A stretch of DNA of 24,524 nucleotides from a virus, in the IMG/VR virus record IMGVR_UViG_3300028045_000092, positions 1 to 24,524 of that record; one strand, given 5' to 3'. This document shows, piece after piece, positions 3 through 24,524 of this stretch. How positions within the stretch are numbered: position 1 is the first letter of the stretch; the number at the start of each line of letters is the position of its first letter. The notes under the pieces are model-generated. The model did not search any database and was not told where the DNA came from. It saw only the letters and a list, made by a program, of their open reading frames with translations. The position numbers and the translations under genes are program-made.

Positions 3-3000
3 ATATTGTCTCTAGATGAGATCTTAAGCTACTTCACAGGACTAGATTTAACTTCAACTATGGAAAAGATATCTGGAATAGTTGATGCCGCTACAGGTGT
101 GGCTTGGTCATTAACTAAGCTTTCTGTAGTAAGCTCTCTACTTCTTCCTGCGGCTGCTTTGGCAATTGTCGGGGCGGTAGGCTTGCTTGCTGGTGCCGCA
201 GCACTTGGCATACTGTCTCCCGGAATTGCTGCATTCGCATTGGCAACAGTTGCTCTAGACGCACTCTTAAGCTTTGCCACGGGAAGAGATTTAACTTCAA
301 CTATGGAACTGACATCTGGTGTCGTTGATGCTGCTACAGGTGTGGCCTGGTCGTTAATTAAGCTTTCTGTAGTAAGCGCACTGCTTCTTCCTGCGGCTGC
401 TTTGGCAATTGTCGGGGCGGTAGGCTTGCTTGCTGGTGCCGTAGCACTTGGCATAATAACGCCTCCAATTCTTGCATTCACAGGGGCAATATTCGTTTTA
501 GGCGCAACCTTAGACGCCATTGCAGGATTAGATTATATAATTTCAGTGACAGAAAAGATGTCTGCCTTAGTTAATGCAACTATGGGATTTGCTTGGGCGA
601 TAATTAAATTCTCTGCCGTTGCTACAGCCCTTGGTGCCATGGCTATATTTGCTCCCATACTTGGAATAGCCTTGGCGGCGGGGGCTGCGGCTCTGTGGGC
701 CATGATGAAGGGCTTTATGGCATTTTCTACTGTTACTGTTTTATTTGGAAAATCTTTTGACGCTATTGGAGGCATAGATGAAGCTGTTAACATAACAGAA
801 AAGTTAGGCGAGTTTGTTGGTGCCATTCAAAGCTTTGTTTTTACATTACTGAAATACTCCGCCGTTGTTGCAGCCCTTGGTGCCTTGTTTGCGTTTGCTC
901 CCATGCTTGGAGCGGCCCTATTGGCAGGTACTGTGGGACTATTCGCCATGATGAAGGGCTTTATGGCATTTTCTACTGTTACTGTTTTATTTGGAAAATC
1001 TTTTGACGCTATTGGAGGCATAGATGAAGCTGTTCACATAACAGAACAAATGGGAGCGTTTGCAGATGCAATTACAAGTTTTGCAGTTTCGGTTATGAAG
1101 TTTTCTGCACTGGCTGCTTTATTGGGCGGAATGACACTAGCGGCAGGATTGGTCGGAGGAATTTTAGTAGGAACCGGCACAGCAGCACTGATGGGGCTTT
1201 CAACTGGGCTGGTGGCTTTTGGAATGGTACTGAAAAGTTTTGCAGATAAAATGGGATCAACATCTGAAGTAGAAGATACAGCAAACAAAATTGTAGCAAT
1301 AGCAAAAATGTTTTCAGTAGTGCCGGAAATAATGAACGTGCTTATAAATTCAATAACTCCAATGGTCTCCAAGAGAATGTTTGGATTAATGGCAGCACCT
1401 GCTGAAAAGTTAAACGGTGAAGCTATAAAGAAATTTTCTGATTTCTTTATAGGCGTATCTAAAATGATGAGAGACGGCATAATAGACCCTGTAAAAGAGA
1501 ATCTGGCTGATGCGGGAGAAATAAAGGATGTAACTAGCAAAATTCTTGGCATGGCACAAATAATTGATGTAATACCAGGGATGATGGACAATGTTGTTAA
1601 TGGTATAATCCCCATAATTGAAGGATCGCTCTTTTGGTCTTCACCTGCCGACAAACTAACCGACACGGTCATGGCTGATTTTAAGAAGTTCTTCACAAAA
1701 GTAGGAACGTTCTTGCGAGACGGCGTAGTCACTCCTATAAGGAATAACTTTGCAGATGTAGCAGAAGTGGAGAAAGTCTCTAGCATAATTGTTGCTTTGG
1801 GATCAATGGTAAGCGTTATCCCCAAAATGATGGATGATATAGTTAACGGTATAATCCCCATACTTGAAGGATCTGGCTGGTGGTTTTCAGGACCGGATTT
1901 GACTGACACGGTCATGGCTGATTTTAAGGAGTTCTTCACAAAAGTAGGAACGTTCTTGCGAGACGGCGTAGTCACTCCTATAAGAAATAACTTTTCAGAT
2001 GTAGCAGAAGTGGAGAAGGTCTCTAAAATAATTGTTGCTTTGGGATCAATGGTAAGCGTTATCCCCAAAATGATGGATGATATAGTTAACGGTATAATCC
2101 CCATAATTGAAGGATCTGGCTATTGGTTTTCCTCAGGACCTGCCGACAAACTAACCGACACGGTCATGGCTGATTTTAAGGAGTTCTTCACAAAAGTAGG
2201 AACGTTCTTGCGAGACGGCGTAGTCACTCCTATAAGGAATAACTTTGCAGATGTAGACGAAGTGCAGAAAGTCTCTCAAATAATTGTTGCTTTGGGATCA
2301 ATGGTAAGCGTTATCCCCAAAATGATGGATGATATAATTAACGGTATAATCCCCATACTTAAACCAGGACTTTTTTCAGACTCGCCCGCTGAAAAATTAG
2401 AATCGAAAATGTGGGAATTTGCTGACTTCTTTGAAGGAGTGGCACTTTTCTTGCGATACGGCGTAATCTCTCCTATAAGGAATAACTTTGCAGATGAAAG
2501 CGAATTGAAAACAGTTTTAGGTATGATGAATACAATGTCGTTTTTGATTGCTAACATCCCCGGTTTCTTGGAGAGTCTATCAATGTCCATAACTGGACTA
2601 GTGGAATCAAAAGGATGGTTTGGCTTAGGTGCAAGTCCTATGCAAGAGATTGCTGCGAAAGTAGTGACATTCTCTAGTTACTTCCAAGCCATTGGAGTTG
2701 CATTGGGGGAAGGAGTTGTACGTCCAATAAGAGACTACTTCCCAAAACCAAAGCAACTTAACACTGCGTTAAAACAACTGGACTCCATGGCATCACTGGT
2801 TGCTGCAATTCCTGATTTCTTGATTCGTATCAATAGTTCTATAGGAACCCTAGTTGATGGTACCTGGTGGAAGGCTTTCACCCAGAATCCTATGGGCACG
2901 ATGACTAAGAAAATACAACTATTTTCCGGTTACTTCCAAGCCATTGCCACTGCATTGGGGGAAGGAATTATTGATCCAATAAAAGATTATTGGCCAAAGC

Positions 3001-5153
3001 CAAAGGAAATTAAGACAGTTGGAAAACAAATAGATCAAATGGAAAAGGTTATCAAAAAACTTCCTGGTTTCTTAGAAAGCCTAGACGAGTCAGTCGGAGA
3101 TTTCTTCCTTGGCACATGGTGGAAGATGTCAAGTCTATACAACAGAACAAGCGTATTTGCTGATTATTTTAAATCTATTGCAGTATCAATAAATGATGGA
3201 CTAATACAGCCAATCCACAAAGAATGGCCAAAATCAAAAGATATAAAGGAAGTCGGTAAGAGAATAGACGAAGTTCAGAAAATTGTTGAAACGCTCCCAA
3301 GTTTCTTGGAGTCTCTAACAACTGTCGTTGAAGAATACGTCGATGGAGGATGGTGGGAAAATGACAAGATTGCTGGACTCTCTTCTAAAGTAGAAGTTTT
3401 TGCTGCTTATTTCGAAAACATTGCAGCAGCTTTAGATGATGGCCTTCTAAAACCAATACAAAAGTGGCCAGAATCTTCTAAAATAGAAGAAATAGGCGAA
3501 AAACTATCCACTGTTGAAAGTGTAATATCTGAACTGCCAAGCACACTGCAATTGTTAACAGATTCTATGCAGAGTCTAGAGAATGGAGCATGGTGGGATT
3601 TGCAGTTAGATAAAGAAAAACAAAAATATATAGACTTCTTTTCAAGTACGGGAAGTTTCATTGTTGATTCGCTAATAAATCCAGTAAACCTATTGCCTGA
3701 AACATCGGCCATACAAGAATCCATAACTAGAATCGAATTAATATGTGAAATATTTAATAAGTATGCGGAAGCGATGTCTTGCATGGCAGAAGCTTCTAAG
3801 AACTTATCTTCTACTGAGCCTATCGATTTAACTGGAATGGAAAATGTTGGAGACGCAATCAAGAACGCCCAGCCAGCAATAAGTAGCATGTTGGAAGGGG
3901 CACAGGTAAACGAAACCACCTTGTTCCCAAAAGACTATCGTGATCCTGCATCATTGACACAAGAGGAACTAATGATGCAAAAAACTGGAGCACAGGTAAA
4001 CGAAACCACCTTGTTCCCAAAAGACTATCGTGATCCTGCATCATTGACACAAGAGGAACTAATGATGCAAAAAACTGGAGCACAGGTAAACGAAACTACA
4101 ATTGCAGGAACAGATGAAAGCAATGAGTCATTGAAACGACTTACGACAGTTTCTCCAGAAAATGATCCCCGATTGAAATCTAATGCTTGGCATCAGAGGT
4201 TGTTAGAGCAGCGAAATCGTCCTGAAAGAGTTGGTCCTGCGGCTGTGGAGTCTCAGTCGCAACAGATGCTTGTTAATCAAACTGGAATGACTCCAGAACA
4301 ACAATTAGAGAAATTTGGACATGCAAGGTCAGGAAGAAAATTTGAATCCGACCCTATCGATAAGCAAATAAGGGCTAATCAACTCGCTACAGACAAGGCA
4401 CGTAGAGCCGCCGAAGGATACAGCCCTGCTCGTGGTGGTATTCAAGAAAATTTAAAGGTTGAAGAAAATCCATTCGATAAGCAATACCCAACATCTAAAG
4501 ATTGGGATAAGCAATACCCAACATCTAAAGATTGGGATAAGCAATACCCAACATCTAAAGATTGGGATAAGCAATATCCAACATCTAAATCTTGGGATGA
4601 GAAGTACGCTAATAGGCGGGAAATAGGAGCAATGGCAAAAGGAGGCGATTTCTTAACTACAGGCGCACAACTGTTGTTGGTTGGAGAAAAAGGCGCAGAG
4701 AGAATTAGTGTAAAACCAGCCGATCAAGTTGCCAATCTAGAGAAGAAAGCATTCGAACACTCTGAAATGACTTCTAAATCGGCAGCTTCTGTCTTGAACG
4801 TACCATCCTCAGTCAGAGCAGTAAATGCACAGCCAAAACCACTCTCAGACGTTCACGAAAGGGTAAGGCAACAATATGCAACAGAAGATGAAGGAAGTAA
4901 AAACAAATCCAAAGACATGGCAGAAATAGCTAGTGCGAGCAACAGCCAAGTTAGTCTCCTTGAAAAATTACATGAAGACAACCAACAGTTGCTTAAAGCG
5001 ATTGAAGGTAAAAGCCAGCCTGGCCGTAGTGAAGGAAACTCACAGGCATCAACTAAAAACAATCAAAAACCACTAAGTAGCCCGAAATATGGAAATTGGC
5101 AATATGGAAAAATGGGTCAAAATGCAAGTAGACAAATACTTACTCCTGGTTAA
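3..5153 (+). CDS. Tail tape measure protein, 5' end outside the window
   Basis: The reading frame is open to the left edge; the first possible start inside is TTG at 6, but the gene probably begins upstream. At least 1715 residues (numbered from the TTG) are present. Residues about 12-416 form five hydrophobic units spaced 81, 81, 82, 82 and 79 residues, each opening with a G-x-D motif. Residues about 417-1235 form ten amphipathic units with a (D/E)G-x-x-x-PI core and often a WW pair. Short tandem repeats follow at 1299-1364 and 1491-1535. Near residue 1543 is the motif GGDFLTTGAQLLLVGEKGAE, typical of the C-terminal part of phage tape measure proteins. The role is to set tail length and, in the family, to leave the tail and help DNA cross the inner membrane; the hydrophobic units fit that. 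Gene order (next to tube adaptor and LysM-like protein) supports the call. The near absence of long coiled coils is unusual, so another large tail protein is a minor alternative. Confidence 0.85.
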   Translation: MLSLDEILSYFTGLDLTSTMEKISGIVDAATGVAWSLTKLSVVSSLLLPAAALAIVGAVGLLAGAAALGILSPGIAAFALATVALDALLSFATGRDLTSTMELTSGVVDAATGVAWSLIKLSVVSALLLPAAALAIVGAVGLLAGAVALGIITPPILAFTGAIFVLGATLDAIAGLDYIISVTEKMSALVNATMGFAWAIIKFSAVATALGAMAIFAPILGIALAAGAAALWAMMKGFMAFSTVTVLFGKSFDAIGGIDEAVNITEKLGEFVGAIQSFVFTLLKYSAVVAALGALFAFAPMLGAALLAGTVGLFAMMKGFMAFSTVTVLFGKSFDAIGGIDEAVHITEQMGAFADAITSFAVSVMKFSALAALLGGMTLAAGLVGGILVGTGTAALMGLSTGLVAFGMVLKSFADKMGSTSEVEDTANKIVAIAKMFSVVPEIMNVLINSITPMVSKRMFGLMAAPAEKLNGEAIKKFSDFFIGVSKMMRDGIIDPVKENLADAGEIKDVTSKILGMAQIIDVIPGMMDNVVNGIIPIIEGSLFWSSPADKLTDTVMADFKKFFTKVGTFLRDGVVTPIRNNFADVAEVEKVSSIIVALGSMVSVIPKMMDDIVNGIIPILEGSGWWFSGPDLTDTVMADFKEFFTKVGTFLRDGVVTPIRNNFSDVAEVEKVSKIIVALGSMVSVIPKMMDDIVNGIIPIIEGSGYWFSSGPADKLTDTVMADFKEFFTKVGTFLRDGVVTPIRNNFADVDEVQKVSQIIVALGSMVSVIPKMMDDIINGIIPILKPGLFSDSPAEKLESKMWEFADFFEGVALFLRYGVISPIRNNFADESELKTVLGMMNTMSFLIANIPGFLESLSMSITGLVESKGWFGLGASPMQEIAAKVVTFSSYFQAIGVALGEGVVRPIRDYFPKPKQLNTALKQLDSMASLVAAIPDFLIRINSSIGTLVDGTWWKAFTQNPMGTMTKKIQLFSGYFQAIATALGEGIIDPIKDYWPKPKEIKTVGKQIDQMEKVIKKLPGFLESLDESVGDFFLGTWWKMSSLYNRTSVFADYFKSIAVSINDGLIQPIHKEWPKSKDIKEVGKRIDEVQKIVETLPSFLESLTTVVEEYVDGGWWENDKIAGLSSKVEVFAAYFENIAAALDDGLLKPIQKWPESSKIEEIGEKLSTVESVISELPSTLQLLTDSMQSLENGAWWDLQLDKEKQKYIDFFSSTGSFIVDSLINPVNLLPETSAIQESITRIELICEIFNKYAEAMSCMAEASKNLSSTEPIDLTGMENVGDAIKNAQPAISSMLEGAQVNETTLFPKDYRDPASLTQEELMMQKTGAQVNETTLFPKDYRDPASLTQEELMMQKTGAQVNETTIAGTDESNESLKRLTTVSPENDPRLKSNAWHQRLLEQRNRPERVGPAAVESQSQQMLVNQTGMTPEQQLEKFGHARSGRKFESDPIDKQIRANQLATDKARRAAEGYSPARGGIQENLKVEENPFDKQYPTSKDWDKQYPTSKDWDKQYPTSKDWDKQYPTSKSWDEKYANRREIGAMAKGGDFLTTGAQLLLVGEKGAERISVKPADQVANLEKKAFEHSEMTSKSAASVLNVPSSVRAVNAQPKPLSDVHERVRQQYATEDEGSKNKSKDMAEIASASNSQVSLLEKLHEDNQQLLKAIEGKSQPGRSEGNSQASTKNNQKPLSSPKYGNWQYGKMGQNASRQILTPG
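699..1046 (+). repeat. Pair of 102-bp near-identical direct repeats, 246 bp apart
   Basis: Bases 699-800 and 945-1046 differ by a single base (a/c at the codon after GAAGCTGTT). The sequences on either side are clearly more diverged although they belong to the same protein units. This points to a recent duplication or gene conversion limited to this block. Confidence 0.85.
1662..2360 (+). repeat. Three near-identical copies of a 243-252-bp unit
   Basis: Copies begin at 1662, 1905 and 2157 with GACACGGTCATGGCTGATTT. They differ at a handful of bases plus small in-frame insertions at the junctions (the GSLFW / GSGWW / GSGYW segment). They encode the units with the core DGVVTPIRNN. A fourth, more diverged copy follows to about 2600. 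Confidence 0.9.
3901..4096 (+). repeat. 90-bp tandem repeat, two full copies plus a partial third
   Basis: Copies start with CACAGGTAAACGAAAC at 3901, 3991 and 4081. The first two are identical over 90 bp; the third keeps only its first 16 or so bases. They encode a 30-residue unit starting AQVNETTLFPKDYRDP. Period 90 keeps the reading frame. Confidence 0.95.
4476..4610 (+). repeat. 30-bp tandem repeat, four copies plus a degenerate fifth
   Basis: Copies start with GATAAGCAATA at 4476, 4506, 4536 and 4566 and encode DKQYPTSKDW. The fourth has three base changes, and a degraded fifth (DEKYANRRE) begins at 4596. The copies abut without spacers. They lie in the hydrophilic segment just before the conserved C-terminal motif of the tape measure protein. 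Confidence 0.95.
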
Positions 5154-5225: not shown

Positions 5226-5768
5226 ATGCCAAAAGGAACAACGCCTAGTGGGCAATTGATAAATTTAAGAGATTGTTATATTTTCGTACCAAATTTTGGG
5301 AGAGTCGAGCTAAACAATTTACCAGATATCAGTGATGGCAAGAGTGCTGCGTATAATGACGAATCACCAATTGGTAGATCTTTTCCTTTAAAAACTTATT
5401 CCCATTCAGAGAATCGTGCAATTTCAATGCAGCTTCATTTTTATGTTGGTAAAAGAAGTGACATTGTACTTAACCTCGAATATCTTAGAGCACTTGAGAG
5501 TTGTGTTTATCCGAGAGACCAAGTAGCAGGTGCGGCAAATGCACCATTTGTTCCTCCTCCTATTTGCAGAATCAGATGCGGGAAACTACTTGCAGATACA
5601 GAATTGTGCTGCATTCTGAAAAGCTACAGCGTAAAATTTCCTACAGATGTAGCTTGGGATTCAGATTTTTATACTCCCTATAAGTTCGACGTAGATACTA
5701 GTTGGGAAGTCGTTTATAAAAGTTCAGATTTACCCGGTCAAGGCAGAATATTAAGTTCAGGGAGATAA
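5226..5768 (+). CDS. Baseplate tube / tail tube initiator-like protein (CIS-tube type)
   Basis: This 180-residue protein starts at ATG 5226, preceded by AAAGGAAAAG. The central part (YNDESPIGRSFPLKTYSHSE, then RAISMQLHFYVG, then a PP-x-C-x-I-x-CG strand pair and a closing strand near residue 165) follows the layout of the contractile injection system tube/adaptor family (Afp7-like) and of P2 gpU or T4 gp48/gp54-like baseplate tube proteins. These form a ring that joins the hub to the tail tube. Position between the tape measure and the LysM-like gene agrees. No signal peptide or membrane segment is seen. The family assignment is by motif and synteny, not by full alignment, so the T4 counterpart is left open. 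Confidence 0.6.
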   Translation: MPKGTTPSGQLINLRDCYIFVPNFGRVELNNLPDISDGKSAAYNDESPIGRSFPLKTYSHSENRAISMQLHFYVGKRSDIVLNLEYLRALESCVYPRDQVAGAANAPFVPPPICRIRCGKLLADTELCCILKSYSVKFPTDVAWDSDFYTPYKFDVDTSWEVVYKSSDLPGQGRILSSGR

Positions 5769-5771
5769 AAG

Positions 5772-6095
5772 ATGGCAGTAGGTATAACAGAAACAGACTT
5801 CAGACCTTCAAGATACGTAAGCTCCTTGAGCAGATATCAAGGAAGCAAGGTGATTTACTGGAGTGATAAAAATTATCTAACATTCGAGACTTACAAAAAG
5901 CCAATTCATGTAAATAGTAATCAAGATATGTTTACAGTAATTAGTCCAAGTCAAGAGTTTAGACCAGATAAAGTTTCTCAAGATATGTATGGGATTCCTG
6001 ATTTTTGGTGGAAAATAATGGAAGTAAATAAAATTAAAGATGTATTTGATTTTAGGGCAGGATTGAGCATAAGATTACCAGGCGGAGTTTACTAG
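5772..6095 (+). CDS. LysM-like baseplate protein (gp53 / gpX type)
   Basis: This 107-residue protein has its ATG 4 bases after the previous stop; GGAGA at 5761-5765 overlaps the end of the previous gene, indicating translational coupling. The C-terminal half shows the LysM-like pattern of phage baseplate proteins: RPDKVSQDMYGIPDFWWKIM, then an asparagine, a short variable stretch and G-x-x-I-R-LPG at the end. In T4 the equivalent gp53 clamps the wedge to the hub; in P2 and PBSX gpX and XkdP sit in the same gene position just before the hub gene. No cell-wall role is implied: the domain here is structural. The assignment as gp53 rather than gpX cannot be settled from the sequence. Confidence 0.7.
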   Translation: MAVGITETDFRPSRYVSSLSRYQGSKVIYWSDKNYLTFETYKKPIHVNSNQDMFTVISPSQEFRPDKVSQDMYGIPDFWWKIMEVNKIKDVFDFRAGLSIRLPGGVY

Positions 6096-7611: not shown

Positions 7612-7625
7612 TATGGAATGTGAAA

Positions 7626-9668
7626 ATGCGAGATAAAATTGAAGAACAAGAACAAAGATTGAAAAAGCTGGAAAGCAGATTTTCTGAATTAGGGTACGAC
7701 ATGACTGCTTTAGTTCAATCTGAGTTCAAGAAAAAATGGAAAATACCTTCTCAGTTTGAAACGCATTATGGAATGCTTACCGCTTTATGCATTGATACCA
7801 TTGATCCTTGGAAACAGAATAAAGTCAGATGGTTCAATCCCTTGTTTCATAGTCCTGATTTAACAGTAAAGGCTTTACCGTGGGCCTATCCTATATCTAG
7901 CATGGGAGGCTTTGATGATTGTGGATTAAATTGGGTTCCGCCTGCCGGTTCAACTCTTTGTATCATATTTGAAAATGGAGCAAGACAAACGCCATATTAT
8001 ATGGGCACAACGTGGCATAGAGACAGAGGTCCTGCGGGACAAGAAAAATTTAAATTCAACATTGATGAATACTTTAAAATACACCAAGGAAAAAGAGACG
8101 GATATCTAGCTGGAGCAAACGATGGGTCTCAAGTATTTCCCCAATGGAACACAGAAAGTTACAATGGTTTTGATATAGACTCAATTGTTGACTTCAATGA
8201 GGACCCAGAAGCTCAAAGAAAAATAACTTACCCCAACATATATGGATTTAAGACTCCTCAAAAACATATGATGAAGCTTGTGGATGGAGACTACAAGTGC
8301 AACCACAGATGGAAAAGAGTGGAATTATTATCGGGTTGTGGCAACTGGATGATTATGAAAGATGATCATTTGCATGATTGTGGCACATGGGCGCATCCTA
8401 ATTGTGGAGTAAGCGGTTCAGAACATGAGTGTGAAGATGAATTTGGGTCTCCAGTAGAACTTACGGAATGCGAGGGCGATACAAGTAATAGTTCAATTCT
8501 TGGCGGGCACCCAAGTACTTCTGACAACAAGTCAAACACAGGAAGTAACCCATATTTCAAACACGAGAGTGAATGCAGGCCGTATAAAGGACCACAAACC
8601 CCACAAAACAACAGATGCGAATTGCCACAAACAGGAGTGCAATTTTTATCAATATCTGGTCATAGTTTCGTAATGGATGATTCTGTCGAAGAGCCGAGCG
8701 GAGTTCCAGAGTGGAAAAGGAGTACGGAAGGATTTGATTTTGGATGTAATGACAAATATGTTGGAAAGACGTTTTGGGTGTCTGCGACTGGACACCGTAT
8801 CGAGATGTCAGATAAAGAGGAAGAAACAAACATAAGAGGCGAAGAAAATTACATAAAATTATTAAGCGCAAATGGAAACAGAATAGAACTTAACGACCAT
8901 ACAGAAGGAATAAAAGGGGATTCTGGATGTCCTCCAAATATAGCAGGAGAAAAACGTGGTATAACATTAGAAAGCACTAGTCGCCATCATATTATGATGA
9001 TTGATGAAGACAATGAACAATGTGGACCGGCCAGAAAAGAAGGCGGAACACCTATCAATCGTGCAAAAAAAGCCTTCGTCAGAATTAGAACTGGTTACGG
9101 TTTGGAAATGGTGATGGCAGATGATGACAGTCAAGAAGATACCGTAAAACAGTATGTTAGGATATATTGCCCGCAGAAAGACAACAATGAACGTGGTCCT
9201 CATATACTACACTTCCAAGAAAAACCATCTGGCCCTGGATTAGTTTTTCTAAGAGTAGGCGGAGATTATGTGTGCTCCACTTATGACAATCATATAACAG
9301 TCGTAGGAGATGTAGAAGATAATCCATCAAATAAAATTGTTATGGTATCAGACAACTATATAGAAATGACTGAAAACCTTTACATGAATGCTGCTGATTT
9401 TCACTTTTTCTGTGCGAATAAAGTAATAATTCTTGGTGCCGGTCTAGATTTGCCGCCGCTGTGCGCTGATGATAAAGGAGGATGTAACCTTTGTTTGTGG
9501 CCTGTTTTGGTATTAGCAGGAGGGGTTGTTAGAGCAAGTGATAGAGTTTTCGCCTCTGCATCTGCCGACGCACCTTGTCTTTCTATATTCCAAATGATGC
9601 CATTCCACAAATGTCCACCAATTCCTTCTTGTAGTTCGGCACAGGCAGCACATGGATCAGGCGCATAA
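7626..9668 (+). CDS. Central spike protein with gp5/VgrG-type OB fold
   Basis: Two starts are possible: GTG at 7620 and ATG at 7626. ATG is chosen because GGA near 7615 is better spaced from it. The protein is 680 residues. A charged helix (residues 1-25) is followed by an OB-fold segment: HYGMLTALCIDTIDPWKQNK, VRWFNPLF, then PPAGSTLCIIFENGARQTPY, as in T4 gp5 and VgrG. No lysozyme domain follows. The rest carries repeated strands of the type S-x-x-G-H-x-I-x-M-x-D (FLSISGHSFVMDD, FWVSATGHRIEMSD, IKLLSANGNRIELND, VRIRTGYGLEMVMAD), the pattern of the triple-stranded needle. About 23 cysteines are present by hand count, including a C-terminal cluster (C-A-D-D-K-G-G-C-N-L-C, later HKCPPIPSCSS). 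The protein would pierce the outer membrane at contraction. Confidence 0.8.
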   Translation: MRDKIEEQEQRLKKLESRFSELGYDMTALVQSEFKKKWKIPSQFETHYGMLTALCIDTIDPWKQNKVRWFNPLFHSPDLTVKALPWAYPISSMGGFDDCGLNWVPPAGSTLCIIFENGARQTPYYMGTTWHRDRGPAGQEKFKFNIDEYFKIHQGKRDGYLAGANDGSQVFPQWNTESYNGFDIDSIVDFNEDPEAQRKITYPNIYGFKTPQKHMMKLVDGDYKCNHRWKRVELLSGCGNWMIMKDDHLHDCGTWAHPNCGVSGSEHECEDEFGSPVELTECEGDTSNSSILGGHPSTSDNKSNTGSNPYFKHESECRPYKGPQTPQNNRCELPQTGVQFLSISGHSFVMDDSVEEPSGVPEWKRSTEGFDFGCNDKYVGKTFWVSATGHRIEMSDKEEETNIRGEENYIKLLSANGNRIELNDHTEGIKGDSGCPPNIAGEKRGITLESTSRHHIMMIDEDNEQCGPARKEGGTPINRAKKAFVRIRTGYGLEMVMADDDSQEDTVKQYVRIYCPQKDNNERGPHILHFQEKPSGPGLVFLRVGGDYVCSTYDNHITVVGDVEDNPSNKIVMVSDNYIEMTENLYMNAADFHFFCANKVIILGAGLDLPPLCADDKGGCNLCLWPVLVLAGGVVRASDRVFASASADAPCLSIFQMMPFHKCPPIPSCSSAQAAHGSGA

Positions 9669-9685
9669 TATAACATAGGAATAAT

Positions 9686-10120
9686 ATGACAAATAAATTT
9701 TTAGGAGCACCGTACCCAATAGTTAGTACAGCGAGAGGACTGCTTGCTACCCAAAGAGGAGTTGATCAAATTAAAGCAGATTTATTACAATTGCTTTTAA
9801 CAAACCCTGGGGAGAGGGTGATGCTTCCTGGTTTTGGAACTCCTCTTAGAGAAATTATATTTGAGCCGAATGACGCTACATCTAGCGAACAAGTGAGAGA
9901 CATGATAATTAATTCCATAAGAACTTGGGAGCCAAGAATAACTATAGAACAGATTGATGTATCAACTCAAGCAGATCAAGAATCTCTTCATGAGGATGAT
10001 TCGCTTGAAGATATAGGTCATATAATGATTGTAAGAATATTATTTTTTGATCCAGAAAACATATCAGAAGTCCAAGAGTTAAAATTAGAAGTACCACTAG
10101 CAGGAGTGACAGGAGAATAA
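9686..10120 (+). CDS. Baseplate wedge protein, gp25/gpW family
   Basis: This 144-residue protein starts at ATG 9686, with AGGAA at 9677-9681. It shows the full gp25-like signature: an N-terminal strand with a GVDQIKADLLQLLLTNPGER helix and turn, then VMLPGFGTPLREIIFEPND, and an -R-x-W-E-P-R-I-x-I- strand near residue 87. Length and motif order are those of T4 gp25 and P2 gpW. In the wedge it binds the sheath initiator position and nucleates sheath polymerisation. It sits between spike and gpJ-like genes as in P2 (V-W-J-I) and Mu. It contains no cysteine, unlike the hub and spike. Family assignment is secure. Confidence 0.93.
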   Translation: MTNKFLGAPYPIVSTARGLLATQRGVDQIKADLLQLLLTNPGERVMLPGFGTPLREIIFEPNDATSSEQVRDMIINSIRTWEPRITIEQIDVSTQADQESLHEDDSLEDIGHIMIVRILFFDPENISEVQELKLEVPLAGVTGE

Positions 10121-10121
10121 A

Positions 10122-11696
10122 ATGTCTAACAATTGCCCTATTCAAGTAAATCCATATGATCAATCAGGTTTGTCAAAAAGTTCTCCTGTATCTAATTTAA
10201 ATTATACTAATCAAGATTTTTATTCTATGAAAACCAGATTGGTTAATTTCATAAATGAAAGATTTGGAGAGGACGGATCACAGATCCCCGAAGCATTTAA
10301 TGATTTTGTTGAATCTGATTTGGCAATCATGTTAATTGAAAATTGGGCGTTCTTAGCAGATACTTTATCTTTCAAGATGGATCAAATAACAAATGAATTG
10401 TTTATAGACACCGTCAACGAAATTGAAAACGCTTTTAGGCTATCTAGATTAGTTGGATTTAAACCACAACCCCCAATAGCCTCTAGATCGCTGTGGAGTG
10501 TAGAAACAAACAACCCAATCACAACAGACATTTCAATAGAAACTCCTGTTAACATTGATTTAGTTTCTGATGGTCAGAGTATAACAATAGAACTGTTTGC
10601 CGCAGATTCAAACAATTTACCTAAATTCGGTGAAGACATTATAATTCCGTCCGGTAGTACGTTAAACCAAAATATAATAGGATTAGAAGGTAGAACATCC
10701 ACAAACACGTTCGTCGGAACGGGCGAAATAGGACAAGCAGTAGAGTTGTCAAGATTTCCTGTAATATATGATTCCATAGTGGTGCAAGTTGATGGATTTA
10801 CATGGGAAAGGGTTGACTACTTTACAGATTCTAATCCAAGAAGAGAGTATAGAGTAGAGTTCAACTCTGCTTATCAGGGTTTTATAATTTTTGGGAATAA
10901 TAGAGCGGGACTCATTCCTTCCAACGGTTCTTCTATATCTGTCACATACAGAGTTGGAGGCGGGAGTATTGGAAATATTGTTACAAACTTTGTGGAAAAA
11001 CAAAAACAAGTAATAGTGGCAGGATTGGGATTCAACGTCCCTATAACTTACAGAAATTACACCAAAGGAGAATTTGGATATAACGGAGACACAATAGAAG
11101 ATATTAGAAGAAAACTTCCTGTTTGGATATCCACACAAAACAGAGCAGTTTCGGGAAATGATTACAAGATATTGGCAGATCAATTTTCGACTCCTTACCA
11201 TGGGCAAATTGGAAAATCAACAGCGGTTTTAAGAAATCATGGATGTGCTGCAAACATAATAGATCTGTATGTTTTAGCAAAAAATGGGGAAGATGGACTT
11301 GTCGAGGCTGGTAATGAATTAAAAGTAGGACTAAATAATGAGTTAAACGATAAAAAAATGTTGACAGATTTTGTTTGCGTAAGAGACGGAGAAGTTACTT
11401 ACGTAGATGTAGTTGTTGACATTACTATGGATAGTTTTTACAAAAAGTTTGAGCAAGAGTTTAGTGTAAATATTGACAATAAAATAAATGAATTCTTCTC
11501 TATAAATAACTGGGATTATGGAAAATCTTTAAAAGATACTGAATTGATTAAGTATTTATCGTCATTCAAAGAAATAAGTGATATAAGTATTTCCTTTACA
11601 ACGGATGATCCTGACAATTCGGGAAGCATGGTTACCGCAAGTTTTTATCAAATAATAAGACCTGATCAAGTAAACGTTTTATACGTTTACGAATAG
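10122..11696 (+). CDS. Baseplate wedge protein J (gp6-like)
   Basis: This 524-residue protein has its ATG 1 base after the previous stop; AGGAGA at 10111-10116 lies inside the previous gene. The N-terminal part has the gpJ/gp6 signature: NYTNQDFYSMKTRLVNFINE, then ESDLAIMLIENWAFLADTLS with DQITNELFIDTVN and R-L-x-R-L-V-G-F-K-P. The middle carries YRVEFNSAYQGFIIFGNNRAG and a GGGSIGNI turn. Next comes RRKLPVWISTQNRAVSGNDY, the conserved transition into the C-terminal dimerisation part. In contractile tails this protein forms the iris ring of the wedges and drives baseplate expansion. P2 gpJ is shorter (about 300 residues), T4 gp6 longer, so this one is in between. Confidence 0.9.
   Translation: MSNNCPIQVNPYDQSGLSKSSPVSNLNYTNQDFYSMKTRLVNFINERFGEDGSQIPEAFNDFVESDLAIMLIENWAFLADTLSFKMDQITNELFIDTVNEIENAFRLSRLVGFKPQPPIASRSLWSVETNNPITTDISIETPVNIDLVSDGQSITIELFAADSNNLPKFGEDIIIPSGSTLNQNIIGLEGRTSTNTFVGTGEIGQAVELSRFPVIYDSIVVQVDGFTWERVDYFTDSNPRREYRVEFNSAYQGFIIFGNNRAGLIPSNGSSISVTYRVGGGSIGNIVTNFVEKQKQVIVAGLGFNVPITYRNYTKGEFGYNGDTIEDIRRKLPVWISTQNRAVSGNDYKILADQFSTPYHGQIGKSTAVLRNHGCAANIIDLYVLAKNGEDGLVEAGNELKVGLNNELNDKKMLTDFVCVRDGEVTYVDVVVDITMDSFYKKFEQEFSVNIDNKINEFFSINNWDYGKSLKDTELIKYLSSFKEISDISISFTTDDPDNSGSMVTASFYQIIRPDQVNVLYVYE
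11501..11508 (+). promoter_or_regulatory. Exact match to T4 late promoter element inside the gpJ-like gene
   Basis: TATAAATA occurs on the + strand within codons for S-I-N-N, about 195 bases before the start of the next gene. It is an exact octamer match, but a few such matches are expected by chance in AT-rich DNA of this length and it lies in coding sequence. Confidence 0.2.
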
Positions 11697-16775: not shown

Positions 16776-17297
16776 ATGATACTAATTGAAGAAAATGATA
16801 ATAGATTTTATATTGAAAAATCTAATTTAACAAATGCTGGCAACGGGGTGTTTGCCAAAGAAAATATAAAAGCTGGAGAATATTTAGAGATAATTGGCGT
16901 TTGCGTAAAGGCGAATTCTGAAGCTGATAAATGCACAGATTGGGCAAAACATTACAAATTTGCTGCTAGGGATAAAAATTTTGATAGATATATTGTGCCT
17001 ATGGGTTACGCTGCCGTAATTAATCACACTAATGACTCCAACATCCAAAATGTAGAAATTAGGTACTTGAAGAACATTCAAAAAAAGAATGAATCTGCTG
17101 GTGGAATGGTCTATTATTTCATTAAGGATGTTGACAAAGATGAGGAAATAGTAGGGAATTATGGAGAAGCAGTTGGAAAAAAATTAGATTGGATTCAAGA
17201 TAAAGCAAATTTCGACAAGGATGAATGGGCAACCTTTTTGTCTTTTGACCTATATAACTTAGGAATACTATCTGAGATAAAGATTTGCGAGGAATAA
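16776..17297 (+). CDS. SET-domain protein, putative protein lysine methyltransferase
   Basis: This 173-residue protein starts at ATG 16776, adjacent to the previous stop. The three SET motifs are present and in order: AGNGVFAKENIKAGEYLE (residues 21-38, the G-x-G-V-F-A AdoMet-binding start), INHTNDSN (82-89, the N-H motif that contacts AdoMet) and KDEEIVGNYGE (121-131, with the catalytic tyrosine expected at Y129). No post-SET cysteine triplet and no extra targeting domain are seen, so it is a minimal SET enzyme. In eukaryotes and some bacteria such enzymes methylate lysines in histones, ribosomal proteins or Rubisco-like substrates. Here the substrate could be a virion protein or a host protein. 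Lying between glycosyltransferase and fibre-like genes suggests late expression and a virion target, but that is inference. Confidence 0.85.
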   Translation: MILIEENDNRFYIEKSNLTNAGNGVFAKENIKAGEYLEIIGVCVKANSEADKCTDWAKHYKFAARDKNFDRYIVPMGYAAVINHTNDSNIQNVEIRYLKNIQKKNESAGGMVYYFIKDVDKDEEIVGNYGEAVGKKLDWIQDKANFDKDEWATFLSFDLYNLGILSEIKICEE

Positions 17298-18099: not shown

Positions 18100-18650
18100 T
18101 GAAAATAATTGATTTTAATTTTGTAATTCTTTCTCCAGAGGCTAATTACGGGCTAATCAAGTCTACTGTTAGATCCATAAGGGGACGGTATAAAGATGTC
18201 GCATATTGTTGCGTCGTTGGGGGCAGAACGTCTCCAAAAAGAATGCAAGAAATAAAAACAATTTGTCCTGAATTGTACAAAGGAAAGGACACCATAACAT
18301 CTTTAATTAACCAAGGTGTCAAGAAAGGAAATAGTTGTTGGAAATATATTGTTTTTGAGGGTGTGACAATGTCTCCAAATAGAGACAAAAAATATAAAAA
18401 CTTTATAGAAAACGAAAAAAATATACTTTATCCAATAATCACAGATTATGACAGACAAGGCAACCCACTTAAATGTTATACCGACTTCGATGAGGCTACT
18501 TTAAACGGATTATTCATTCATCAAAAAACATTAAAAGAAGTAGGAGACTTCACTGATAATCCACTAAAAATTTCAAAGTTTTTCTGGATGCTTGAAGCGG
18601 CGGATAGGGGATGCACCTTCAAAGCAATATTAGGTGCCAAAGTTTTCTAA
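18099..18650 (+). CDS. GT-A-like glycosyltransferase-fold protein
   Basis: This 183-residue protein overlaps the previous stop (TAATG, shared A at 18099); no separate ribosome binding site is seen, so it is probably expressed by coupling. It starts with a strand (KIIDFNFVILSPEANYGLI) and a S-T-V-R-S-I helix, as at the start of GT-A folds. G-K-D-T-I-T-S-L-I-N-Q-G then resembles the N-x-G helix of family 2 transferases, followed by WKYIVFEGVTMSPN in place of a classical D-x-D. The C-terminal part (LIHQ-type segment FIHQKTLKEVGDF, then KISKFFWMLEAADRGCTFKAI) matches the late helix where the acceptor binds. The lack of a clear D-x-D means catalysis is uncertain; it could be a fold relative used in binding. 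Confidence 0.5.
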   Translation: MKIIDFNFVILSPEANYGLIKSTVRSIRGRYKDVAYCCVVGGRTSPKRMQEIKTICPELYKGKDTITSLINQGVKKGNSCWKYIVFEGVTMSPNRDKKYKNFIENEKNILYPIITDYDRQGNPLKCYTDFDEATLNGLFIHQKTLKEVGDFTDNPLKISKFFWMLEAADRGCTFKAILGAKVF

Positions 18651-19186
18651 ACTAGCCCGTAAACAAAAGACCATCTGTCGTCTTTTTTATGCTTACCAGA
18701 ATCTACTTCTTCCAAGTAGTCCCACACAGCTTCCAAACTTCCAAATCTTTTAGTTGACATCCCCCAATACCAAAAAGGAACAAAGTATCTACCTTCTGGG
18801 CAGAATATCAAAGTTGGATTTTTGTTGTTCACGCTGTTTACTATTTCATTGTGCGTACCTGTCGTTGCAACTCCTTTAGGCAAACAGGCAATTAAAAAAT
18901 CACTTTGACTGACCCATTTTAAGTCTTTTCTCACAAATCCATGCGCAATTCTTTCTATTTCGTGGTCTATCTCAGGAACAACTGCATCTCTGCCGATTGA
19001 ATTGCCTTTTTCTCTCAACTCTCTGAGGTTTTTTTGCCATTGTTGCTTTGGGTCATCAAAAGGATTGAGAACTTCTACTCCAAATTCTTGAGACAAGACA
19101 TAAGAAGCATCTTCTGTCCAAGACGATTCTGTCGAATTTTCCATTGGACCGCTTAAATAGCATCTTTTTCCTTTTAAAAAGGACAT
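18647..19186 (-). CDS. Nucleoside 2-deoxyribosyltransferase-like protein
   Basis: The only gene seen on the minus strand: 179 residues, ATG at 19186-19184, with GGAGG-type site just upstream (complement of CCTCC at 19193-19197). Motifs: CYLSGPM (residues 9-15, nucleotide-binding start of this superfamily), a D-x-E-I segment (74-77), QSDFLIACLP with D96, and TGTHNEI (100-105) where E104 is in the position of the catalytic nucleophile of nucleoside deoxyribosyltransferases. This superfamily acts on nucleosides or nucleotides, moving or removing deoxyribose-linked bases; some members are nucleotide-binding sensors. It might process nucleotides for phage replication or be a counter-defence factor. 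Its 3' end overlaps the GT-A-like gene by 4 bases, tail to tail. Confidence 0.7.
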   Translation of the reverse strand: MSFLKGKRCYLSGPMENSTESSWTEDASYVLSQEFGVEVLNPFDDPKQQWQKNLRELREKGNSIGRDAVVPEIDHEIERIAHGFVRKDLKWVSQSDFLIACLPKGVATTGTHNEIVNSVNNKNPTLIFCPEGRYFVPFWYWGMSTKRFGSLEAVWDYLEEVDSGKHKKDDRWSFVYGLV

Positions 19187-20016: not shown

Positions 20017-21039
20017 GTGTCAAAAATATCAAGCCTAGATGAAGGATACGTATCAGGAGATTTGTCTGTCTATCCTGAAGCGTTAGACAATAAAGATACA
20101 CTCAATGAAGCAGTAAATAATGCCGAAACTACTCTGAAACAGGGCTTAACATACTTAGGAAAAATTCTAGTAGTCGAAGACTCTTCGAACTTCCCAGATA
20201 CAGGACTGTTAAGACTGGTAAATGAAGATTCTAATCAATATGAATTACTTTACTATGGAAAAAAGACTCAACAAGGGTTCTCAGATCTAATAAGGGACTT
20301 TGCGGGATCTAGAAGAAATACTTGGCCAAAAGGAACTAAGATTGCAAATGCCGTATTTGCTGAACATCATAATGCAATAAAAGATGCAGTCTTAAACATG
20401 CAGTCACACTTGGGGGTCAAAGACTTTCCTGCGAGCACGTCGTTAAATGGAATTCTTAAAAAACTAGAAGAAAAGTATCTTTCGCCAAAACCTGTGTGGC
20501 GAACATATCCGAAACAGGGAGCACCTCCTTTAACCGTCAGATTTCAGAATTTTTCAGGTGGAGACGCTGTTCGTTTCCTGTGGGATTTTGGAGATGGAAG
20601 TACATCTATAGAAAAGAACCCAATACATACATACAACAACGAAGGAATTTACACTGTTAAATTGAATATAATCACATCAACAGGTGCTCAAGGAATTGCT
20701 ACTAAAACCAACTATATTACCGTGGACGAAAATTTAAAAGACCCATTTTTTTATGTTGCACCAAAAGATCCAACAAATCCAAACTACTCAATAGAAACAG
20801 CAAGCTCCCTTGGAGAGCCTGCTCAGGTGTTTCAATTTGTCGATCAAACTGACGGCGACATTTCGCAAAGATTCTGGATCTTTGACGACGGTAACAGTGA
20901 AGCGATAACCGACCCAAACATTCACACCTACGAATACACTTATGAGAAGCCCGGAGATTACGAGCCTTCCTTGCTGATTATATTCGCAGATCAAAAATTA
21001 AAACGTGTATTTTTAAAAGATGAAATTATTGTTTTATAA
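20017..21039 (+). CDS. Tail/adhesin-type protein with PKD domains (first of three paralogues)
   Basis: This 340-residue protein uses a GTG start. Residues about 9-140 are the N-terminal domain shared with the next two genes: YPEALDNKDTLNEAVN, then FPDTGLLRLVNED and YELLYYGKK, a GSRR turn, and AEHHNAIKDAVLNMQSHLG. Residues about 161-238 are a clear PKD domain (APPLTVRFQNFS, then FLWDFGDGSTSIEKNPIHTY and GIYTVKLNII). Residues 245-340 are a second, diverged one (FWIFDDGN, then TYEKPGDYEPSLLII). PKD domains are beta-sandwich modules common on cell surfaces and in phage fibres, where they act as spacers or bind glycans. The shared N-terminal part is probably the virion attachment domain. No enzymatic motif is seen. 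Confidence 0.75.
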   Translation: MSKISSLDEGYVSGDLSVYPEALDNKDTLNEAVNNAETTLKQGLTYLGKILVVEDSSNFPDTGLLRLVNEDSNQYELLYYGKKTQQGFSDLIRDFAGSRRNTWPKGTKIANAVFAEHHNAIKDAVLNMQSHLGVKDFPASTSLNGILKKLEEKYLSPKPVWRTYPKQGAPPLTVRFQNFSGGDAVRFLWDFGDGSTSIEKNPIHTYNNEGIYTVKLNIITSTGAQGIATKTNYITVDENLKDPFFYVAPKDPTNPNYSIETASSLGEPAQVFQFVDQTDGDISQRFWIFDDGNSEAITDPNIHTYEYTYEKPGDYEPSLLIIFADQKLKRVFLKDEIIVL

Positions 21040-21047
21040 GGAGAATT

Positions 21048-23285
21048 ATGACAATCCCAACTGCTAGTAATTATCCAGATCAATTAGATAATGATACGAA
21101 TTTGTATGAAGTGCATGATTCTTTAAGAGTTAGATTAGCAAATGACTACAACGTCGGAGACTCCAGTATAACTGTATTTGGAGACACAACCAGTTTTCCA
21201 ACAACTGGACTTATAACCTTAACGGAACAATGTTCGGAAATAAACTTAAGAGCAATAAGTTTTTATTACAAATCTAGAACAGACACCACCTTTGATGGCT
21301 TAGAAATGTTGTCCGGGTTCACTGACTCTGTAAAACCTAAACTCATTACAAATGTAACGCAGAATGTGATGGCAAGTCATCACAACAATATAAAAGACGC
21401 ATTAATTGCCATACAAGAATTTGTAGGAGTAGAAGGAACTATTGATACCACGCCATTGGGCGAGACAATGACAGGAAGAATTAACTTCCTTAGAAAACTA
21501 ATTCTAACACCAAAAGCCTGGTTTACTCAAAATAAAACAATTGGGCTTATTCCGCTGAAGGTAGATTTCACTGATCAGAGCTTCAGGCTAGGGGACAATA
21601 CCGTAACTTTTATATGGGATTTTGGAGACCAAACAACTTCAAACATTTCTTTTATTTCAAACATATCTGTTACAAGTGTTGTTCCAGTAGATGACGTTAA
21701 CGTAATAGTGTATGACTTAAATGGCGGGACATTGCAGAAAACATATTCTGAACCTGGCTTTTACGATGTTAGCTTGAGAGTGATAAATGAATTCGGAGAG
21801 GATACTGTTAAGTTTGAAAAACTAATCAACGCAAGATTCTCCGCTCCAGAAGAAGCTGAGATCAACTTCGTTCCTCGATCAAGTCAGACTTCAACAATTA
21901 ACCCTCCGACAATTAGATCTTCAGTAAATACTTTTATAGATATTGAAGTACCCGCTGGAGAAAATCCGTCCAATCCCGGATATTCTTACTCAGGCGAAAA
22001 ACTAGACGGAATTGGCAGTCCAATAGACCCAATTGACACATACACATGGTCGTTGGGGGATGACCTGTTGCATGTGAACTCCTCAGAGGCCAGAGCATCG
22101 TATAGCGTGGGCGGGTTGTATGACTTAGTGTTAAGAACGGATACAGAATTTGGATCGTATAGAATAACAGCACATGAAGATTCTATAAGTATAATTGAGA
22201 GGCAGAATTTATTTTTGTGGACTCTATCTGGGCCTACGGCTACAGCAAGTGAGTTTGGAATAGTAAGTGAAACTTTTGTAACTCAAGGAAACAATAATTA
22301 TAATGTGACTAGGGATGAAAGTTTTTTAACAGGGACGAATGGAGAAGAAAAAGCAAAATCTGAATTCAAAAAGAATACTGGATTTGCAAGGCGTGGAACT
22401 ATATTTTCAGGAGAACGAGGAACAGCAGTTCTTTTTCACGCTGAAGGGGGGAGCGACTACTCATCCATGGCAAGCCAAGAGGCAAAATTTGTCGAGTACA
22501 ACGGGTTTGATGATGTTTACTCTATAGATGGATCTGTAACGATTACAAGACCTTGGAATTGGATGTTTTTATCATCTGGATCTAAGGCTTATTTTCTTAT
22601 GGGGCCAGACTCTTCTTTAACGCCCAACGATAATAGTTCTTATCAATTAATGCAAACACTTGATCTAACACCTACCTTTTCTCTTTCAAACACCACATTC
22701 ACTTCCGGCAACTACGCTAGTGGCTCCAATGACTTATTGCAAAACGTGACTAGCGGGTTTGATGGGTCAGGAGAGCCACTAGATGGACGCTATTCGACAT
22801 ACAGAAGCACATGGAAAGATTCCAACGGGTATTTTGTTAGGAACGATGGGGTGGGATCTTTCTTTAGAATCAAGAGCTTCTATAGAACAGAGGGTGTTTT
22901 AGGAGATGAATTTCAAGGAGTTAAAAAATTACCAGATATTGCAGGAACAACGAAGTTAGAGGGAGAACTTGTAACAATGACAAATGGGATTTTCTTTTTC
23001 AACAACTCTGGATCAATTTCGGCATATAATGACTCTAGTGGCGTCTGGGAAGTTGGAGGCCCCAGTGGTAACTCTGCAACTTTTAGATCTGTGCAGGATA
23101 CAAGTGTTTCGGGCTTTGATAGCCCAGAAAATACTTTATTAGCAGCCTCTGATGGAGATAGGATAGCATATCTAAGTTATGACTATAGTTCAAATGCCTT
23201 AATTAAATATAACGGAACTGATTCTACATTCGTAAACATTGGACCCAGACCAAGCGGGGAACAATGGATTATGGGTGTTTATTGA
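21048..23285 (+). CDS. Large PKD-containing tail/adhesin-type protein (second paralogue)
   Basis: This 745-residue protein starts at ATG 21048 with AAGGAG overlapping the previous stop. Residues about 5-140 match the shared N-terminal domain (YPDQLDNDTNLYEVHDSL, FPTTGLITL, ASHHNNIKDALIAIQEFVG). PKD 1 (about 157-265) has FIWDFGDQTTSN and TYSEPGFYDVSLRVI but carries an insertion of about 30 residues between them. PKD 2 (about 270-385) has TYTWSLGDD and SYSVGGLYDLVLRT. The remaining 360 residues are rich in G, S, N, aromatic and beta-type segments, with repeats such as GIFFFNNSGSISAYND, RIAYLSYDYSSNALIKYNG; a propeller-like or receptor-binding head is possible. The size makes it the best candidate for a host-contacting protein in the window. 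Confidence 0.7.
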   Translation: MTIPTASNYPDQLDNDTNLYEVHDSLRVRLANDYNVGDSSITVFGDTTSFPTTGLITLTEQCSEINLRAISFYYKSRTDTTFDGLEMLSGFTDSVKPKLITNVTQNVMASHHNNIKDALIAIQEFVGVEGTIDTTPLGETMTGRINFLRKLILTPKAWFTQNKTIGLIPLKVDFTDQSFRLGDNTVTFIWDFGDQTTSNISFISNISVTSVVPVDDVNVIVYDLNGGTLQKTYSEPGFYDVSLRVINEFGEDTVKFEKLINARFSAPEEAEINFVPRSSQTSTINPPTIRSSVNTFIDIEVPAGENPSNPGYSYSGEKLDGIGSPIDPIDTYTWSLGDDLLHVNSSEARASYSVGGLYDLVLRTDTEFGSYRITAHEDSISIIERQNLFLWTLSGPTATASEFGIVSETFVTQGNNNYNVTRDESFLTGTNGEEKAKSEFKKNTGFARRGTIFSGERGTAVLFHAEGGSDYSSMASQEAKFVEYNGFDDVYSIDGSVTITRPWNWMFLSSGSKAYFLMGPDSSLTPNDNSSYQLMQTLDLTPTFSLSNTTFTSGNYASGSNDLLQNVTSGFDGSGEPLDGRYSTYRSTWKDSNGYFVRNDGVGSFFRIKSFYRTEGVLGDEFQGVKKLPDIAGTTKLEGELVTMTNGIFFFNNSGSISAYNDSSGVWEVGGPSGNSATFRSVQDTSVSGFDSPENTLLAASDGDRIAYLSYDYSSNALIKYNGTDSTFVNIGPRPSGEQWIMGVY

Positions 23286-23371: not shown

Positions 23372-24524
23372 ATGTCAATAGGATTCCCACCAGTTCCACT
23401 GTACCCGAAAGCTTTAGATTCAGACTACACCTTGTTTTTAGTCTATAACACATCTGAAGCTGCATTAGCTTCAAATAATGAAGCGTGGGCGGAAGAAGTA
23501 GAAATAGAACCTGTTAGTGCCGAAAGTAATGAGATTTGGGCAGACAATGGCTTTGCGAACATATCTGGTGAGTTGTTCTATTATGACGAAGTAGAAAAAG
23601 ACTCGAATGATAAAGTCTACAAGTTAAAAAGATGCTCACGAAACCTTGGAGGCTCTAAAACAAAATTTAACGAATCTGGATCGATGGTGCGTGGATTCGT
23701 AGTGGCAGAACATCACAATCAATTAGCAGACGCAATAATAAAAATAGAACAATTTGTTGGAGCAATATGTGACATAACAGATGCTGAAGAGTTTGCTAAA
23801 ATAAAAGACAGTTTAGATTGTAAAATTCGTTCTTTGGATGCAGAGCCAGATTGTATAGATGATGCCTGTCCTGATGCTGTTTTTTCTTTTGAAATCAACG
23901 ATGAAGAAAGTAGTAACTGCGAAGGTACAGTTGCTGAGTACGAGATAAGCATCGAAGGAAATTTTACAGGATTCAAAATTGACTTTGGTGATGGAACATT
24001 CACAACATCTTCAAGGTCAGGCACAAAAACATACCCTCCAAACACAAATATAGATCCAGTTTTGACAGTTAGCAACAATGCGTGTCAAATTATTCAAACT
24101 CCAATTGTAAGATCGAACCCTCAAGAGCCTGAAACTGAAGAAGTGCTAGAAGCTTTTGAAATACCGATCCCAGAAGTTCCTCCGTTTCCAGAGTTGGTAA
24201 TACCAGATATTGAGGCTCCTGAAAATGAACTAACACTGCCTCCAATAGTGTTTCCGTGTTTGGAAGCTGGGCCTTTGGGGCCAATAAATGTGCCATCTGT
24301 TATAATTATAGAACCACCTATTGACATACCTTCAGTAATATCAATTACGCCAGTTGACATACCTAGTGAAATCAGGTTTATCGACGCACCATCATTCAGT
24401 CCTATTGAGTTTGGCCCAGCACCATCGTTTAGTCCTATTGAGTTTGGCCCAGCACCATCGTTTAGTCCTATTGAGTTTGGCCCAGCACCATCGTTTAGTC
24501 CTATTGAGTTTGGCCCAGCACCAT
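23372..24524 (+). CDS. PKD-like, proline-rich tail/adhesin-type protein (third paralogue), 3' end outside the window
   Basis: The start is ATG 23372, preceded by AGGAAAT. The frame is open through the right edge (384 complete codons). Residues 1-150 match the shared N-terminal domain: PLYPKALDSDYTLFLVYN, ISGELFYYDEVE, GGSKTKF and VVAEHHNQLADAIIKIEQFVG. Residues about 168-255 hold a PKD-like module with FKIDFGDGTFTTSS and a late VLTVSNNACQ strand; four cysteines lie around it. From about residue 255 the chain is proline-rich (EIPIPEVPPFPEL, EPPIDIPS), and from residue 339 it is a perfect 11-residue repeat APSFSPIEFGP, four full copies plus the start of a fifth at the edge. This reads as attachment domain - PKD - extended stalk, with any receptor-binding tip lying beyond the window. 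Confidence 0.75.
   Translation, partial: MSIGFPPVPLYPKALDSDYTLFLVYNTSEAALASNNEAWAEEVEIEPVSAESNEIWADNGFANISGELFYYDEVEKDSNDKVYKLKRCSRNLGGSKTKFNESGSMVRGFVVAEHHNQLADAIIKIEQFVGAICDITDAEEFAKIKDSLDCKIRSLDAEPDCIDDACPDAVFSFEINDEESSNCEGTVAEYEISIEGNFTGFKIDFGDGTFTTSSRSGTKTYPPNTNIDPVLTVSNNACQIIQTPIVRSNPQEPETEEVLEAFEIPIPEVPPFPELVIPDIEAPENELTLPPIVFPCLEAGPLGPINVPSVIIIEPPIDIPSVISITPVDIPSEIRFIDAPSFSPIEFGPAPSFSPIEFGPAPSFSPIEFGPAPSFSPIEFGPAP
24386..24524 (+). repeat. 33-bp tandem repeat running off the right edge
   Basis: Copies begin with GCACCATC at 24386, 24419, 24452 and 24485, and a fifth at 24518 is cut by the edge. The first has two base differences (TCATTC for TCGTTT); the next three are identical. Each encodes APSFSPIEFGP. 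Confidence 0.97.

Follow-up and report, generated by a model that had tools for sequence, protein, structure and literature searches.

Large repeated units of two kinds in the probable tape measure protein of an uncultured contractile-tailed virus

That tape measure proteins (TMPs) can contain repeat units, which may be duplicated or lost, is already known (PMC3271669, PMC5099701). Tandem repeats of 11 residues (11/18 type), marked by Trp/Phe, occur in TMPs of Clostridium and Bacillus prophages (Belcaid et al. 2011, PMC3271669), and a 44-aa TMP block differs between Bacillus prophages (PMC3271669). The TMP of TP901-1 also carries 11/18-type repeats (Mahony et al. 2016, PMC5099701), and deletion of 347 aa of these shortened the tail from 118 to 65 nm, or 0.153 nm/aa (PMC5099701). 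A 40-residue repeat is ascribed to the TMP of the lactococcal phage p2, as cited in the same report (PMC5099701). In phiCbK, the TMP of 1,964 aa predicts a tail of 295 nm, with which the measured tail agrees (PMC3556154). Natural units in tape measures and the evolution of tail length are thus an old question, which could earlier be approached only through 11/18-residue repeats or single blocks.

Here we describe an array of ~83-residue units, in a hydrophobic (H) and an amphipathic (D) flavour, encoded by a viral DNA window of 24,524 bases that represents the whole virus record. Like the 11/18-repeat TMPs, for which duplication or loss was proposed to alter tail length, the protein and its relatives have tandem rod units in variable number, and, as in TP901-1, hydrophobic regions lie upstream of the repeat region. 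Unlike in those proteins, the units are ~83 aa long, their hydrophobic period is 3.5 residues with little signal at lag 11, and the hydrophobic part is itself an array of equal period. The published W/F patterns (11- or 11-11-18-residue spacing) were absent from all TMPs of this group. The p2 repeat, compared by its description only, resembles the present units in that 40 residues are about half of one unit, but differs from them in its 11-11-18 spacing with aromatics, which is absent here. In a limited literature search, units of ~83 aa, hydrophobic and amphipathic flavours in one array, and arrays of up to 25 units were undescribed, and the unit type appears to be new within a known kind of protein. 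The first-pass annotation of this DNA had stated that TMPs are usually devoid of large regular units; the documented 11/18-, 40- and 44-residue repeats narrow that statement, whereas the novelty of conserved 83-residue units appears to stand. A ruler made of large units that can be counted, in two kinds and with about 8 to 25 in each protein, would allow tail length to be predicted for each virus, and the H units would offer a handle on the role of the hydrophobic part of the tape.

Gene neighbourhood and identity of P0001

The window opens within the ORF P0001 (3-5153, plus strand), which is therefore truncated at its 5' end by the contig edge and encodes 1716 aa in the window; the complete orthologue in L035, the closest relative, has 3068 aa. 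P0001 is the longest gene and adjoins the baseplate genes on their upstream side, the position expected of a tape measure gene. On the same strand it is followed by a conserved tail gene of 180 aa (5226-5768), which lies directly 3' of the TMP in relatives, a gp53-like baseplate wedge gene (5772-6095; phrog_7145, E 8e-13), a 502-aa gene at the position of the hub protein but without family match, a baseplate spike gene with a Phage_base_V OB domain (7620-9668; PF04717 above cut-off), a gp25-like wedge gene (9686-10120; PF04965, E 4e-19) and a gp6-like wedge gene (10122-11696; phrog_10646, E 5e-24; phrog_219, E 4e-21). This gene order is kept in relatives, and gp25 was found in all 11 relatives tested. 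Wedge genes of gp25, gp6 and gp53 type next to a TMP mark the contractile-tail (myovirus) module. A tail sheath domain above cut-off was present in the L048 genome, and the L083 genome encodes a sheath with 65% identity; sheath genes were not detected in the remaining relatives (fragments or divergent sequences).

P0001 itself gave no match to TMP families. Its sole match among viral contigs was a near-identical contig and it had none among 50,697 phage records, where the array of L049, a relative, was likewise without an isolated-phage match. Relatives were found first via the neighbouring genes and then via the TMP N-terminal domain. In L035 and L004 this domain matched phrog_28 ('tail length tape measure protein') weakly, with an E value of 7e-4, and the N-terminal domain of the relatives matched PF10145 under the cut-off. 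The D array of L049 matched phrog_4200, of the same TMP name, at E 5e-10, though without any significant single stretch. At the other end of P0001, a C-terminal motif, AMAKGGDFLTTGAQLLLVGEKGAERISVKP (4629-4718, plus strand), is conserved in L004, L006, L035, L049 and L055; motifs of this kind are associated with TMPs. Of the TMP hallmarks, great length, mostly helical content and a place upstream of baseplate genes were found, the helix content being read from a low-confidence model. In a PDB profile search two solved TMP chains appeared with E values of only 0.2-0.3; matches to designed coiled coils and to helical chains of unrelated proteins were judged to be due to low complexity.

The missing direct family match would be compatible with P0001 being some other long tail or virion protein, but gene position, length, the conserved N- and C-termini in relatives and the weak TMP matches make that extremely improbable. 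The earlier naming of this ORF as a tape measure protein is upheld by its baseplate gene neighbours, the conserved ends of its relatives and the weak N-terminal family matches. We consider it likely that P0001 is the TMP of a contractile-tailed virus, with the array of ~83-residue units forming a rod that acts as a length ruler. The uncultured huge phage LR756511.1 (595 kb) has homologous gp6-like, 180-aa and TMP N-terminal domains; unlike P0001, its 1641-aa TMP has no H and D units.

Several other features of the window were recorded. The C-terminal part of P0001 contains a tandem repeat of 2 x 90 nt, 99% identical (3897-4076; ETTLFPKDYRDPASLTQEELMMQKTGAQVN), and four tandem copies of a 10-residue unit, DKQYPTSKDW (4476-4598). 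Repeats of 33 nt (PSFSPIEFGPA; 24386-24524) reach past the 3' end of the contig and belong to an ORF without Pfam match (23372-24523). Amid the tail genes lies a gene for a SET-domain protein (16776-17297; PF00856, above cut-off), and the start of an ORF in L016 (15797-16333) resembles that of this protein. A Nucleoside 2-deoxyribosyltransferase-like gene, slightly under the Pfam cut-off, sits inside the tail module on the opposite strand (18647-19186), and two PKD-domain proteins are encoded 3' of the baseplate genes (20017-23285).

The unit array of P0001

The array consists of five hydrophobic units, H1-H5 (42-1250), spaced at 80-82 residues, and then ten (D/E)G-x-x-x-P(I/V) units, D1-D10 (1251-3689), spaced at 78-84 residues, all on the plus strand. 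The hydrophobic units are H1 (42-284, 81 aa), H2 (285-527, 81 aa; 84% identical to H1 in nucleotides), H3 (528-773, 82 aa), H4 (774-1019, 82 aa; 74% nucleotide identity to H3) and H5 (1020-1250, 77 aa). They are followed by D1 (1251-1505, 85 aa, core DGIIDPV), D2 (1506-1748, 81 aa, DGVVTPI), D3 (1749-1991, 81 aa, DGVVTPI; 95% nucleotide identity to D4), D4 (1992-2243, 84 aa, DGVVTPI), D5 (2244-2486, 81 aa, YGVISPI), D6 (2487-2738, 84 aa, EGVVRPI), D7 (2739-2990, 84 aa, EGIIDPI), D8 (2991-3224, 78 aa, DGLIQPI), D9 (3225-3464, 80 aa, DGLLKPI) and D10 (3465-3689, 75 aa), in which the core is degenerate (DSLINPV). The preceding stretch, H0 (3-41, plus strand), looks by eye like what is left of the C-terminal end of one more hydrophobic unit: residues 1-13 of P0001 (ILSLDEILSYFTG) are similar to the end of H1 (TVALDALLSFATG), so that at least one more unit has been cut off upstream by the contig edge and fifteen is a minimum. 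About fifteen units of about 80 residues, hydrophobic ones preceding those with the DG-xxx-PI core, had been proposed before, and both number and order were borne out; of the extent then given, 39-3710, the place holds and the limits are now 42-3689.

No internal match was listed when P0001 was compared with itself by BLASTP, and lag and HMM tests were used instead. BLOSUM lag autocorrelation had its peaks at 82/164/245 for the hydrophobic part and, for the part that follows, at 84/81/165/246. Compared with 1000 permutations, the best lag within 74-94 had z values of 22.8 for the H and 31.8 for the D part. At the DNA level, repeats spaced at 243-252 nt (DNA repeats D1-D4 and D6) were seen in both halves of the array. 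An internal repeat confined to 1662-2360 would have spoken against the array; residues 829-1229 alone, where the near-identical copies are left out, still gave a best lag with z = 17.6 (1000 permutations), and the H part lies outside that stretch as well. HMMs built from other viruses only, with no window sequence, recovered all ten D units with scores of 27-69, against a highest score of 7.9 among 500 shuffles. Of the five H units, three exceeded the shuffle maximum of 6.5 (14.0, 11.8 and 10.5) and the others scored 5.8 and 1.2, H5 being the weakest in this search; the assignment of H4 and H5 follows from their likeness to H3 inside the window. Near-identical units can collapse in short-read assembly, and unit counts are therefore lower bounds.

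Unit number, TMP length and predicted tail length among relatives

Both H and D units were present in eleven other uncultured viruses, with H before D in all of them. The relatives have about 4-12 H and 4-18 D units, in total about 8 to 25, and the complete unit-bearing TMPs range from 1507 aa (L048) to 3833 aa (L049, 6 H + 19 D); the complete TMP of L035 has 8-9 H and ~11.5 D units. Over 179 steps the unit length was 83.3 ± 3.8 aa (range 74-94), the units of L004 (89-93 aa) and the H units of L049 (~90 aa) being long. Only one to four D-like units were found in L036, L038, L039 and L069, and many relatives sharing the TMP N-terminal domain have no H or D units at all, which indicates that the units are dispensable for TMP function. 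Other repeats were seen in two TMPs of the group. In L004, a 21-residue tandem repeat (GFKDRFNDMTSKDGMLGKAAQ; residues ~775-870) precedes the H array. The L007 TMP, which is without 83-aa units, has a hydrophobic repeat of smaller size, about 55-60 residues (residues ~750-930), with lag 56 among its top lags, maybe another unit size in another branch.

Across the nine complete TMPs that carry both unit kinds, TMP length rose with unit number (r = 0.94), each unit adding 91 ± 13 aa. The intercept, about 1190 aa, corresponds to the non-repeated TMP ends, and array span correlated with TMP length at r = 0.95. The close relatives L052, L053 and L059 (71-79% identical) differ within the array mainly by unit-sized blocks, which measure 88, 84, 82 (47+35), 76 and 86 aa; outside the array there are further indels of 25-95 aa, and L059 has one combined block of 146 aa. 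In unit trees, which have low support at several nodes, middle units group by virus (D2-D5 of the window, H3-H7 of L035, D2-D4 of L004), and for the last D units the grouping is in part by position. The clustering of middle units by virus implies that arrays gain and lose units in their middle, and at the level of sequence it shows lineage-specific tandem duplication of these units. Given totals of about 8-25 units among relatives and differences by whole blocks, tail length probably evolves stepwise, by roughly 12 nm per block.

In the mechanism that we propose, the rod is built of head-to-tail ~83-residue units between a conserved N-terminal domain (missing in the window) and a conserved C-terminus, in a fixed order from very hydrophobic H units to amphipathic, heptad-patterned D units. 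Each unit is predicted to form a pair of helices, both roughly 40 residues long. Extended inside the tail tube, the rod would set the length of the tail, with about 0.15 nm for each residue, and gain or loss of one unit would change the tail by about 12.5 nm while leaving both ends undisturbed. The H units may also serve for chaperone binding in assembly or for membrane passage of DNA after ejection. AlphaFold2 models, one covering three D units and one covering H4-H5-D1-D2, had mean pLDDT values of 49 and 51, at which the two-helix unit is tentative; that the protein is helical, as first suggested, agrees with these low-confidence models and with the 3.5-residue hydrophobic period of the D units.

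By the simple ruler relation of TP901-1 and phiCbK, the TMP lengths of these uncultured viruses predict tail lengths between about 226 and 575 nm for the group. The longer members would fall, on gene-based predictions, in the length class of the long-tailed myovirus S-CREM2, whose tail of ~418 nm is the longest of isolated myoviruses according to its authors (PMC10665884); the text of that paper does not mention the TMP (PMC10665884). A more elaborate proposal, which we advance tentatively and with rather less than even confidence, is that H and DG-type units alike descend from a single ancestral two-helix unit of ~83 aa, and that the ruler is modular, with quanta of ~12.5 nm and independent numbers of H and D. 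If so, a contractile tail of about 575 nm would be expected for L049 (6 H + 19 D, 3833 aa), exceeding the ~418 nm reported as longest among isolated myoviruses (PMC10665884).

The units might instead be mechanically indifferent, easily duplicated DNA in whose place any helical filler of equal length would work, their likeness reflecting recent copying. Middle units are indeed the youngest and most alike, many relatives do without units, and replacement of an 11-aa repeat of TP901-1 by alanines had little effect (PMC5099701). Yet the D core and spacing are kept across TMPs otherwise only about 35% identical, and the old, diverged units at the C-terminal end of the array keep them too, which points to selection on unit form and leaves indifference an unlikely account, though one of some weight.

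Two unit flavours, one period and the ring register

The two flavours differ strongly in hydropathy. GRAVY values are 1.25-1.5 for H units, in which 38-59% of 19-residue windows exceed a hydropathy of 1.6, as against 0.1-0.4 for D units, which have a heptad pattern with a hydrophobic period of 3.5 residues. Such hydrophobicity, together with the proposal that TMPs form host-membrane pores (PMC8718954), would fit H units that are a membrane pore or channel domain outside the ruler and share the period by chance. However, H and D periods are equal within each virus and the arrays join in phase, the distance between the last H and the first D unit being one period (79-88 aa) in 10 of 12 viruses. 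In the other two, L048 and L078, overlapping hits at the junction distort the step count. In four viruses the starts of the units were set partly by eye, and in the others by HMMs, so that the in-phase result is favoured in those four. When H and D profiles (77 and 101 units) were aligned, helix A matched in register, 2-37 to 3-38, with a score of 17.4, as compared to 6.9 ± 1.4 for 60 controls with permuted columns and 11.6 when the profile was reversed, at an hhalign probability of 11%. By hhalign, H-D homology was not significant with the window units alone and still weak with four viruses; a common origin of H and D units is suggestive on these sequence comparisons. Part of the hydrophobic region of TP901-1, moreover, counts towards tail length (PMC5099701). 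Taken with the shared period, this makes a separate pore domain improbable, and we prefer to regard H units as part of the ruler.

Each unit had also been suggested to match three rings of the tail tube. On average the two are close, as 83.3 aa at 1.5 Å give 125 Å, or 2.9-3.2 rings of the 38.5-42.8 Å reported as tail-tube ring thickness (PMC8718954). A functional mark on the tape at exactly three rings is nevertheless very unlikely. Units spread over 74-94 aa within and between proteins, and those of L004 and the H units of L049 would be several rings out of step over ten or more units. A rise of 1.5 Å per residue needs an unbroken helix, and D units contain prolines and a mid-unit loop. A 27-residue sub-period was absent from both sequence and hydropathy. 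Owing to the spread in unit length and this absence the suggestion fails as a strict rule, and there may be a loose average match of one unit to about three rings. Sub-periods were seen at 7 residues, the heptad, and some arrays also had one of 42 residues (about half a unit), the D units of the window giving a weak 42-residue half-unit signal (z 3.8).
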